A DNA stretch of 26,061 bases from a virus. The stretch is taken from positions 1 through 26,061 of the IMG/VR virus record IMGVR_UViG_3300046011_000954; one strand, written 5' to 3'. Of this stretch, positions 20,313 to 24,912 are shown piece after piece. The first letter of the stretch is position 1. Each line of letters opens with the position of its first letter. The notes beneath the pieces are model-generated. The model had not been told where the DNA came from. It made no database searches and worked only from the letters and a program-made list of their open reading frames with translations. The translations under genes and the position numbers were made by a program.

Positions 20313-20528
20313 ATGGGAAAGATAATACTAGAGTTCGACAGTATCGAAGAGCAAGACGAAGCGAGAAGCGCTATTGATGGAACGAAATGGAAAAATGTAA
20401 TTTGGGAACTAGAACAACATTACAGAGGTGTATATAAGTACTCAGAAGTTGGTAGCGAGATTGATGAAGCGGAACGAGTGAGGGAGAAAATTAGAGAAAT
20501 TTTAGAAAATAATGAGTTGATTTTGTAA
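20313..20528 (+). CDS. Small conserved phage protein
   Basis: 71 residues. The pattern 'FDSIEEQDEARSAIDGTKWK' then 'IWELEQHYRGVYKYSE' matches a small family widespread in phages (EADEARIAINGxKWxxxLWxLDQxLRxxxKY), generally helical, function unknown. It is co-transcribed with the phosphoesterase. Its 3' end contains the TTTG of the downstream promoter at 20522. Confidence 0.6.
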   Translation: MGKIILEFDSIEEQDEARSAIDGTKWKNVIWELEQHYRGVYKYSEVGSEIDEAERVREKIREILENNELIL

Positions 20529-20554
20529 ATATTAAAAAATAATAGTTATATTTG
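20522..20554 (+). promoter_or_regulatory. Promoter of the structured RNA and replication operon
   Basis: TTTG (20522-20525), 21-bp spacer, then TATATTTG (20547-20554), a full Bacteroidota promoter. Transcription should start near A20558, 2 nt before the first hairpin of the RNA. Confidence 0.8.
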
Positions 20555-20557
20555 TAC

Positions 20558-20654
20558 ACGAAGCGTAGGAAACTTCCAAAGAAATTTAATAACAACAACA
20601 AATAAAGTCAAGTTCAAAAGGTAATCCTACGCACCTTTTAGCTTGGCTTTTTTG
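20558..20654 (+). ncRNA. Structured leader or small RNA with complementary hairpin loops, terminator-like 3' end
   Basis: Hairpin 1: GAAG (20560-20563) with CTTC (20573-20576), loop CGTAGGAAA. An A-rich single-stranded stretch of about 27 nt follows. Hairpin 2: AAAGTCAAG (20604-20612) with CTTGGCTTT (20642-20650), an internal loop TTC/AG, then AAAAGGT (20616-20622) with ACCTTTT (20633-20639), and a 10-nt loop AATCCTACGC, followed by T through 20653. Bases 20563-20570 (GCGTAGGA) are perfectly complementary to 20625-20632 (TCCTACGC), joining the two loops; pairing at G20563 would compete with hairpin 1. The second hairpin plus T-run looks like an intrinsic terminator ahead of the next gene, so this could be a terminated small RNA or an attenuator. 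I cannot assign an Rfam family. Confidence 0.6.
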
Positions 20655-20675
20655 TTGGAAATAATTTTATTTATT

Positions 20676-20885
20676 ATGATTTACAAATTTAATGATTATG
20701 AAAGAGGAACTACTTTAGAAGTTCAATTGTACAATGAGGATAATCAACCACCTCAAGATGATGAGTATGTAGAAATTCAATTATGTAATGAATCTACTGA
20801 GGAGTTAATAACAATTGATTTAAGTAAAAAACAACTATTTAAATTAATTGGAGCATTACACTGTATTCAAAAAGAAATGAAATAG
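20676..20885 (+). CDS. Small acidic hypothetical protein, first gene of replication operon
   Basis: 69 residues from ATG 20676 in the TTTATTATG context; a TTG at 20643 would start inside the terminator-like hairpin. It is acidic (YNEDNQPPQDDEYVEIQLCN) with a helical end (LSKKQLFKLIGALHCIQKEM). It lies 22 nt after the T-run of the structured RNA, so its translation depends on read-through of that hairpin. Function unknown. Confidence 0.55.
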   Translation: MIYKFNDYERGTTLEVQLYNEDNQPPQDDEYVEIQLCNESTEELITIDLSKKQLFKLIGALHCIQKEMK

Positions 20886-20887
20886 TT

Positions 20888-21607
20888 ATGAGTGGTTGGA
20901 TAAAATTACATCGCTCTATAACTGAGCATTGGTTATACACTGAAAATAGAAAGTTTTCTAAGTTTGAAGCTTGGAATGATATTTTACTAACTGTTAATTA
21001 CGCACCTGCTAAAACAATTATTAAAGGAAAAATAATACATATAAATAGAGGCGAAAGTATTTTATCCCTTGAAAGTTGGGGTAAAAAATGGAATTGGGAC
21101 AAATCATCTGTTAAAAGATTTTTAGAATTACTAAAAAAAGATGAAATGATTGAGTTAAAAAACGAAACGGTTACGACACGGTTAATCGTTTGTAAATATG
21201 ACACTTATCAATCAAAAGAAAGCGAAGTTGAAACACAAGTGCAACGCAGACGAAACGCAGGTGAAACGCAGACGAAACCAATTAAAGAAGAAAAAGAAAG
21301 TAAAGAAGAAAAAAGAAATAAATCTTTTGATATATTTTGGAATATTTACGATAAAAAAGTTGATACAAAAAGATGCAGAGAAAAATTTTTAAAATTAACA
21401 GATGATGAAGTTTCTATAATTCTAAATGTTGTTAAAAAATATGTTGATTCAAAAACAGATAAACAATTCCTTAAAAATCCTTTAACTTGGTTAAATGGTA
21501 AATGTTGGAATGATTCAATAATTAATTCTGTAGAAACAAAAATTAGTTGTGAAGATGAATATATGATGAATGTAATGAAACAAGTTAACGCAAATAAATT
21601 ATTATGA
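20888..21607 (+). CDS. O-like replication initiator with winged-helix N-domain
   Basis: 239 residues. Residues 1-115 follow the pattern of phage replication proteins: SGWIKLHRSITEHWLYTENR, FSKFEAWNDILLTVNY, GKIIHINRGESILSLESWGK and KSSVKRFLELLKKDEMIELK, the last being a winged helix. A charged, low-complexity linker (about 115-145) is encoded by 11-bp tandem repeats and A/T-rich DNA. The C-terminal part (SFDIFWNIYDKKVDTKRCRE, FLKNPLTWLNGKCWND) matches the replication-protein tail that contacts the helicase. It overlaps the helicase gene by 4 nt. Role: bind the origin within its own gene and load the helicase, as lambda O and P do. Confidence 0.8.
   Translation: MSGWIKLHRSITEHWLYTENRKFSKFEAWNDILLTVNYAPAKTIIKGKIIHINRGESILSLESWGKKWNWDKSSVKRFLELLKKDEMIELKNETVTTRLIVCKYDTYQSKESEVETQVQRRRNAGETQTKPIKEEKESKEEKRNKSFDIFWNIYDKKVDTKRCREKFLKLTDDEVSIILNVVKKYVDSKTDKQFLKNPLTWLNGKCWNDSIINSVETKISCEDEYMMNVMKQVNANKLL
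21228..21282 (+). repeat. 11-bp iterons inside the initiator gene
   Basis: Five consecutive 11-bp units begin at 21228, 21239, 21250, 21261 and 21272, consensus (G/A)(T/C)GAAACGCAG; the middle three are close to perfect and alternate GT and AC at their start. Eleven is not a multiple of three, so the protein is not repeated. This points to selection on DNA, as for initiator-binding iterons spaced at about one helical turn. Confidence 0.8.
21228..21345. other. Candidate phage replication origin
   Basis: The iterons (21228-21282) are followed by an A/G-rich, then A/T-rich tract (21283-21345) that should melt easily. Iterons plus A/T-rich tract within the initiator gene is the lambda ori plan. 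This is an inference from layout. Confidence 0.55.
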
Positions 21608-22521
21608 TATTAGAATCAGGACATAGTACAAACTATTTAAATGATTATTTAGATGGTAAAATTCAATTTGGTAAAGGAATAGGTTGTTACCTAGACGATC
21701 ATTTGACTTGGAAAACAGGACAGTTAAATATTATACTAGGACACGATAACGTAGGTAAAACATATTTTATGGAATGGTACTTTTTAGCTTTAGCTACTCA
21801 GCACGATTTAACATTCACTTTATTTATGGATGAAAATTATCAAGGCAAGGTAATGAGAGATTTAATTCAAATGTATTCAGGTAAACCTTTTAAAGACTTA
21901 ACACCTTCAGAATTGAGAAAGGGAGAAATTAAAATGGAACATTATTTTAAGTTTGTAGATAATCAAAAAAGATATACACCTGATGAATTGTTAAATGTTT
22001 TTAATAGTTCAAATACAGATAACTATCTTATAGACCCTTTTAACGGTTTAAAAACTGCTATGAGTTATTCAAGTAATTACGATGTATTAAACGATTTGAA
22101 ACATTTTACTAAATCAGGAAAAACAATTTATGTAAACACGCATCCTAGTTCCGCAAGTGGTAGACGTTCCGCAATTTATCCTGAAAAACATTCGTGGGCT
22201 GGACACGTTATGCCTCCATTAAAAAGTGATATTGAAGGTGGAAAAGCATTCGCAAATAAAGCTGATGATTTTATTGTAATTCACAGAATGACACAACATC
22301 CTGAAATGTGGAATCAAACAATGTGTGAAGTTGTAAAGATAAAAGACACCGATACGGGTGGTATGCCTACTAAATTAAATACACCAGTGTTATTAGATTA
22401 TAATAAAGGTTTAGGTTTTAGAGTTGGTGGAGTTGATTGTATCAAACGAAAGAATATAATCTTAGAAAATGAAACTGAAGGAATGAAACCAAATACTAAC
22501 TTTGACAATTTACCTTTCTAA
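21604..22521 (+). CDS. DnaB-type replicative helicase (RecA-like core)
   Basis: 305 residues, overlapping the initiator stop. Walker A GHDNVGKT (46-53), a catalytic-Glu candidate in MDEN (near 77), Walker B YLIDP (141-145), and the NTHPSS sensor region (about 178-183) followed by AGHVMPPLKSDIEGGKAFAN and 'ADDFIVIHR' are characteristic of the DnaB/Twinkle RecA core. The N-terminal domain of full DnaB is lacking, as in many phage helicases. It should unwind the fork after loading by the O-like protein. The last residues, FDNLPF, resemble the SSB C-terminal tip. Confidence 0.85.
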   Translation: MILESGHSTNYLNDYLDGKIQFGKGIGCYLDDHLTWKTGQLNIILGHDNVGKTYFMEWYFLALATQHDLTFTLFMDENYQGKVMRDLIQMYSGKPFKDLTPSELRKGEIKMEHYFKFVDNQKRYTPDELLNVFNSSNTDNYLIDPFNGLKTAMSYSSNYDVLNDLKHFTKSGKTIYVNTHPSSASGRRSAIYPEKHSWAGHVMPPLKSDIEGGKAFANKADDFIVIHRMTQHPEMWNQTMCEVVKIKDTDTGGMPTKLNTPVLLDYNKGLGFRVGGVDCIKRKNIILENETEGMKPNTNFDNLPF

Positions 22522-24728: not shown

Positions 24729-24912
24729 GATTAAAAAACATATCCCTGATGCTATATTCAAGGATGGTGTTTTAATATCTCCGTTACCAACTGTAAAGTT
24801 CGGACATAGGATAAGGACGGAAGTAGAATTTATTGAGATGGTTTTTGTTAAGTACGATTTTAAGACTGTTGTAGAAGCAATGAAGAATAAAAAAATAACT
24901 TTGAATTTATGA
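24694..24912 (+). CDS. Small hypothetical protein
   Basis: 72 residues, overlapping the previous gene by 35 nt and the next by ATGA. Basic N-terminus (IRSKLEVREDKIKKHIPDAI), then a helical region (FVKYDFKTVVEAMKNKKITL). No recognised domain; the position before a membrane protein gives no functional hint. Confidence 0.45.
   Translation: MIRSKLEVREDKIKKHIPDAIFKDGVLISPLPTVKFGHRIRTEVEFIEMVFVKYDFKTVVEAMKNKKITLNL

Follow-up and report, generated by a model that had tools for sequence, protein, structure and literature searches.

What might a leader accomplish when the loops of its two hairpins can pair with each other and when it stands directly ahead of the replication genes of a phage? This question is raised by the stretch of DNA analyzed here in its entirety (termed the window), a 26-kb phage contig of 26,061 nucleotides whose replication proteins resemble those of flavobacterial phages. 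Comparison with related phages places the leader within an RNA family that is widespread among flavobacterial phages, is located before their replication genes and apparently has no name. The family provides a clear case of a kissing helix with strong covariation; its loop-loop codes, of which nature has supplied dozens, may yield many mutually orthogonal attenuators for a phylum in which few tools are available. It also makes the timing of replication in these phages directly testable, cultured carriers being usable for this purpose; and, if leaders do in fact recognize their own kind (a reading considered below), then virulent phages would possess a form of RNA incompatibility that lacks an antisense gene.

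Anatomy of the leader and the genes behind it

The elements that the original prediction had listed from the sequence alone--a full promoter, a 5' hairpin, an A-rich spacer, a two-part 3' hairpin and a T-run--are all found (Table 1), and the eight-base complementarity that it reported between the loops is exact. The promoter, TTTG-N21-TATATTTG (i.e., TTTG-N21-TAnnTTTG), is the sole match of such spacing in the window, where about 0.5 would be expected by chance; the Bacteroidetes consensus is TAnnTTTG/TTTG (PMC2483708, PMC7366714), and nearly all members of the leader family are preceded by TATATTTG. Both of the predicted hairpins are present, but the 5' stem of the window, with its 4 bp, is weak by itself and the energy model favours a 3-bp variant; this stem is invariant in one class of relatives (type A) and covaries in another (type B). 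The 3' hairpin, whose 10-nt loop is AATCCTACGC (20623-20632), was rightly described as terminator-like, and its T-run is followed by the ATG of the gene at 20676; it is missed by a simple terminator scan because its loop exceeds 8 nt. Each of the two core 8-mers occurs only once in the window, and the leader RNA folds 3.9 SD better than shuffled sequences. In the fold of the window phage the tail TTTGTTG has an alternative pairing with CAACAAA at 20596-20602. Across the family the predicted RNA has a median length of 91 nt (range 79-96).

Table 1. Features of the leader and of the genes that follow it (window coordinates)
Feature	Position	Strand	Basis
Bacteroidetes-type promoter: -33 TTTG, -7 TATATTTG, spacer 21	20522..20554	+	sequence
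5' hairpin GAAG[CGTAGGAAA]CTTC, at predicted transcript start	20560..20576	+	sequence
Loop core 1, GCGTAGGA, which kisses core 2	20563..20570	+	fully complementary to 20625-20632; relatives show compensatory changes
A-rich unpaired spacer	20577..20603	+	sequence and fold; length differs between relatives
Two-part terminator-like hairpin	20604..20650	+	fold z -3.9; family arms G-U:A-C 98:7
Loop core 2, TCCTACGC, inside terminator-like loop	20625..20632	+	exact complement of core 1; compensatory changes in relatives
T-run (six T) of terminator-like hairpin	20648..20653	+	sequence
First gene: 69-aa product, function unknown, beta4-alpha fold predicted	20676..20885	+	ORF list (there from upstream TTG); alignment A3
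DnaD-like helicase loader / replication initiation gene	20888..21607	+	PHROG 2514, E 2e-28
Replicative helicase-like gene	21604..22521	+	PHROG 18375 DNA primase/helicase, E 1e-19

The 69-aa product of the first gene (AlphaFold2 mean pLDDT 86.5) has no Pfam or PHROG match, and a Foldseek search returned no informative solved relative, but only phage proteins of unknown function; similar predicted proteins occur in Cellulophaga phages phi10:1 and phi18:3. Many relatives share a first-gene family of 60-80 aa, which falls into MIYKF... and MAVKLxF... groups (alignment A3). Overall, the downstream genes differ among relatives and, as named by inspection, comprise this small protein family, replication initiators, primases, and HNH or GIY-YIG-like endonucleases. 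Certain HNH/NUMOD endonuclease-like genes have a kissing leader and a code of their own (L053 1097, L013 7171, L345 and L279 1469).

That the original prediction knew of no named family with this layout agrees with the searches performed: Rfam 15 yields no match in the window at the gathering cut-off and, for the leader at E ≤ 10, only three chance-level matches; searches of the open-access literature retrieved no description of such a kissing-loop phage leader; and a BLAST comparison of the leader with named phages gave chance matches only.

Covariation of the two loops

Relatives were collected through the helicase protein, that is, blind to the leader. Of 31 contigs found, 26 retain upstream DNA (L009, L014, L017, L021 and L030 are truncated ahead of the leader, or probably so), and all 26 contain a leader whose two cores, of 6-9 nt, are complementary. 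Although one relative (L002) hardly differs from the window and two others (L010 and L012) are alike, this set includes about 17 different codes--for example, GCGTAGGA, GCGTCGGA, GCTTGGAC, GCTCGAC, GGTCTCAC and GCTCTCAC, and further GCTCCTAC, CATCCTAC, CTTCTGAC, CGTCTCAC and GTCAGCAA--every one of which is complementary to its partner. Hence, to the question whether both loops change together, which had been proposed as a check, the relatives answer that they do, and on these leaders the prediction survives the refuting condition set for it, namely loop changes that break complementarity without compensation.

An unbiased test used a pattern consisting only of the promoter and the 5' hairpin, with no complementarity required. 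A complement of at least 8 nt accompanies 48 of 118 viral matches, with a bimodal distribution, versus 1 of 118 matches in bacterial-genome contigs, the one complement there being 9 nt long. Among those viral matches that have a T-run but a complement shorter than 7 nt, just one (L320) looks like a real leader, and it keeps all eight pairs, one of them as G-U. In the scan of bacterial genomes no family member was recognized among the 119 matches listed. Many contigs of the first pattern scan were coding-sequence coincidences and were excluded. These include a group (L054, L055, L057, L059 and others) in which GCGTAGGA and TCCTACGC lie 54 nt apart within a conserved, probably coding stretch whose flanking sequence is different; this group does not belong to the family.

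The leaders fall onto two scaffolds. The type A alignment (26 rows, including the window) has the form GAA[core]A(A)CTTC followed by GGT[NN core']ACC, and the type B alignment (40 rows) the form GTT-C[core]AYWATAG followed by a hairpin with [AA core']. In type B, double changes occur at 6 of the 8 pairs of the loop-loop helix and at 3 of the 5 pairs of the 5' stem, so that the suggested covariance analysis of homologous leaders favours the predicted pairing; when the register is slid, only 25-44% of cells remain paired, versus 98% in the true register. RNAalifold picked the loop-loop helix unprompted in both alignments, though it is unable to draw both hairpins and the kiss together. Several qualifications apply: the A1/A2 leaders were selected by exact complement, which makes their near-100% pairing (but neither the variety of their pairs nor the outcome of the unbiased tests) a matter of construction; motif-search parameters were set after examples had been seen; model E-values are rough; and metagenomic contigs may contain assembly errors. 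Nevertheless, because the core pairs covary among relatives, a chance origin of the complementarity is excluded; by the same evidence the leader structure is shown by covariation, and the leader satisfies the definition of a kissing-loop RNA, namely complementary loops kept by compensatory change.

Does selection act on RNA, or on a DNA element of the same symmetry? The two 8-mers might be half-sites for a phage-specific regulator and have no RNA function, since a single protein binding both copies would likewise yield co-varying inverted repeats. For a DNA inverted repeat, equal numbers of G-U and A-C transition mismatches are expected; on the transcribed strand, however, the arms of hairpin 2 contain across the family 98 G-U versus 7 A-C mismatches (p = 6e-22), with the proviso that a short apical stretch had been selected with G-U allowed. 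Moreover, each 8-mer sits in a stem-closed hairpin loop, the 5' stem of type B covaries as well, and the strand is fixed by T-run and promoter. The half-site explanation can thus be given almost no credence; the mismatch asymmetry shows that selection is on the RNA rather than on a DNA inverted repeat.

Turnover of the code and proposed mode of action

Two leaders (L375 and L272) agree at 83 of 83 flank positions, but two of their core pairs are different, which amounts to four bases, all compensated; their neighbourhoods are 80-89% identical where alignable, and their downstream genes are different. Another two (L023 and L025) differ at 2 of 85 flank positions and also at two core pairs. Among leaders that were not gathered by code, core divergence equals or exceeds that of the flanks at most distances; in the bin with the most pairs the values are 0.37 for the core, 0.23 for the flanks and 0.09 for the neighbouring loop tail. 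This suggests diversifying selection on the code, but does not prove it because the flanks are themselves constrained. The GC content of the core is kept at 4-6 of 8; a tuned core stability was considered and rejected, the spread being no more than a fixed GC content yields. Whole leaders are exchanged as well: one phage (L003) is 92-94% identical to two others (L004 and L005) along the initiator-helicase stretch, and the swapped region lies 650-985 nt before the helicase, between conserved neighbours. Because leader type and first gene differ between phages that are otherwise so similar, leader and first small gene evidently travel as a cassette.

The 93 leaders compared are oriented like the genes that they precede, and the next ATG mostly comes 35-70 nt past core 2. 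This is the layout of a transcription attenuator--a terminator-like hairpin in a coding-strand 5' leader before an open reading frame--, a T-run of at least four having been a criterion in the search for relatives. Because a replication operon that stands behind a terminator depends on read-through, the most likely reading is that of a transcription attenuator in which the loop-loop kiss sets the terminator; we consider this probable, though far from assured, the control of termination being inferred without RNA data. Transcription would start at the 5' hairpin of a leader of roughly 80-96 nt; the loop of core 1 would pair over about 8 bp (core duplex energy about -10 to -15 kcal/mol) with core 2 in the intrinsic-terminator-like loop, creating a kissing complex; core 1 would capture newly transcribed core 2 while the terminator still lacks its 3' arm; and the kiss would tune how often transcription ends there, with release of a short RNA, and how often it continues into the replication genes. 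In folds of the growing window transcript, core 1 with core 2 is the best pairing at lengths of 77-85 nt, and the terminator prevails once 89 nt are reached. (These are equilibrium, pseudoknot-free folds, which give a nested core helix and not the kiss itself.) According to this model, core pairing can precede terminator closure; the sign of its effect is not readable from sequence. Pairing need not block the terminator, since core 2 belongs to its loop and not to its stem. The original guesses, namely that loop contact sets termination or that the RNA acts in trans, fit this anatomy and, with no transcript or termination data, remain inferences.

That leader molecules act on one another is conceivable, although this is unproven and has no direct support. 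Past the leader, the minus-strand element TAnnTTTG, which would mark an antisense promoter, occurs in 7 of 93 cases versus 9.6 expected, and thus is not enriched; core 8-mers beyond the leader, which would mark a second complementary site, number 4 versus 7.9 expected in 20 phage genomes. With neither a conserved antisense promoter nor a further core site, any trans effect inside the phage must be leader-leader. As a weaker inference, released leaders of the same code might compete in trans for nascent loops. A released leader would then act only on nascent leaders of its own code, limiting the replication genes of its own phage and of co-infecting phages that share the code; a rare code would escape, leading to diversification, and the code, as a self-recognition label, would change continually. 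We regard this proposal as tentative and rather doubtful.

The attenuator must be weighed against a merely structural kiss, which would lock the ends of the short RNA or 5' UTR and render it nuclease-resistant while its code drifted neutrally, any effect on the terminator being incidental. Complementarity that is strict with letters almost freely chosen, the steady GC content of the core, and the location of the 5' hairpin at the predicted transcript start all accord with this. That it nonetheless seems unlikely follows from the turnover described above, in which the core diverges at least as much as the flanks at most distances though each change takes two mutations, and in which leaders without any flank change differ at two core pairs, and from the read-through that a terminator immediately ahead of the replication operon requires. 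Quite improbable, in our estimation, is a small RNA that targets other mRNAs in trans, with read-through secondary: core 8-mers elsewhere do not exceed chance, the codes vary between relatives as a conserved seed for a host target would not, and the pre-gene position is nearly constant. Still, promoter and terminator would free an RNA of about 90 nt, and dual small/messenger RNAs with a comparable layout are on record: from one promoter, IsrK of prophage Gifsy-1 yields both a short terminated RNA and a read-through messenger (PMC4825925). IsrK differs in having no kissing code family and in belonging to another host phylum.

The put RNA of phage HK022, which consists of two hairpins behind an early phage promoter and acts in cis on transcription, offers another model: the leader might be an antitermination RNA that modifies RNA polymerase, with the kiss as part of its fold. 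Two hairpins right behind the promoter of a replication operon, mostly one copy per genome, and conserved features outside the core (for example, hairpin 2 has a tandem G-A internal loop in 43 of 52 type-B leaders, as matched by a loose regular expression) are compatible with this idea. However, the 3' hairpin is itself terminator-like and its loop is occupied by the kiss, and types A and B have little sequence in common for a polymerase to read; the idea strikes us as very improbable. Unlike the leader, put is not known to have a loop-loop code or an internal terminator. Purine riboswitches also couple intramolecular kissing loops to a terminator, but their loops lie in the ligand pocket and are conserved in sequence, whereas one loop of the phage leader is the terminator loop and its letters vary widely.

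Closer to an attenuator of the proposed kind are RNAs that control phage or plasmid operons. The c4 antisense RNA of P1/P7 is a short RNA from the leader of an antirepressor operon. In P4, complementary leader segments including the CI RNA stop transcription before replication genes (PMC4825925). P4 CI resembles the present family in being a short RNA from the leader of a replication operon, with complementary stretches in one leader giving specificity. It differs in that it is processed, has its pairing partners (seqA and seqC) outside itself and functions in lysogeny, whereas the phage leader has both partners in one RNA, the second within the terminator loop. As to premature termination before replication genes, the leader has, by sequence, a terminator-like hairpin with a T-run in the corresponding place. 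Two other features of P4 CI or c4 do not recur here: an outside target is not supported by the core 8-mer counts given above, and a temperate lifestyle is not supported either, as no PF00589 integrase was found in the 31 contigs, some of which are fragments. The antisense attenuators of pT181 and pIP501 are alike in that loop-loop recognition decides termination before a replication gene, and altering the recognition hairpin in pT181 chimeras produced orthogonal attenuator pairs (PMC3753616). The leader, by contrast, comes without an antisense gene, as the minus-strand promoter counts indicate. We view the P4 CI and pT181 parallels as precedents, P4 CI being the nearest one for halting transcription ahead of replication genes through complementary leader segments, and claim no membership in either system.

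Distribution and cultured carriers

The 30 related contigs and the window mostly have one copy of the leader, and sometimes two or three (39 candidates versus 5 in reversed sequence). Where a genome has two convincing copies, their codes are different (G003, G005, G019 and L008). A type-B model without the loop-loop pairing, applied to 301 Flavobacteriaceae genomes, identified a single member, which has a new 10-nt code (AGCCTTCGAC) and is located on the contig numbered C164 of its assembly; a second match (L584) overlaps an apparent tRNA and was rejected. With one member in 301 such genomes, the family is phage-borne.

Because BLAST of the leader is uninformative, cultured carriers were reached via neighbouring proteins. 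The leader was not found in phages 6H or P2559S, nor in the examined parts of Panino and Arctus_1. Like anatomy before replication genes occurs in Cellulophaga phages phi19:3 and phi13:2, in Olleya phage Harreka_1, in Flavobacterium phages elemoA, elemoC, sniff9-2, hemulen6-1 and 11b, and in Polaribacter phage P12002L. Baltic Flavobacterium phages isolated as plaques, including lillamy9-1, are called virulent (PMC7077304). The leader of lillamy9-1 has, by eye, a mirror form, with AA-GTGAGACG in loop 1 and CGTCTCAC-ACTAC in loop 2. Such a mirror kiss, in which a loop of the AA-GTGAGA type is 5' and one of the TCTCAC type is in the terminator hairpin, is seen in lillamy9-1 (L565/L572), elemoA (L563) and L546 (G031 at 24884). 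The hexamer pair TCTCAC/GTGAGA recurs on different scaffolds for no known reason.
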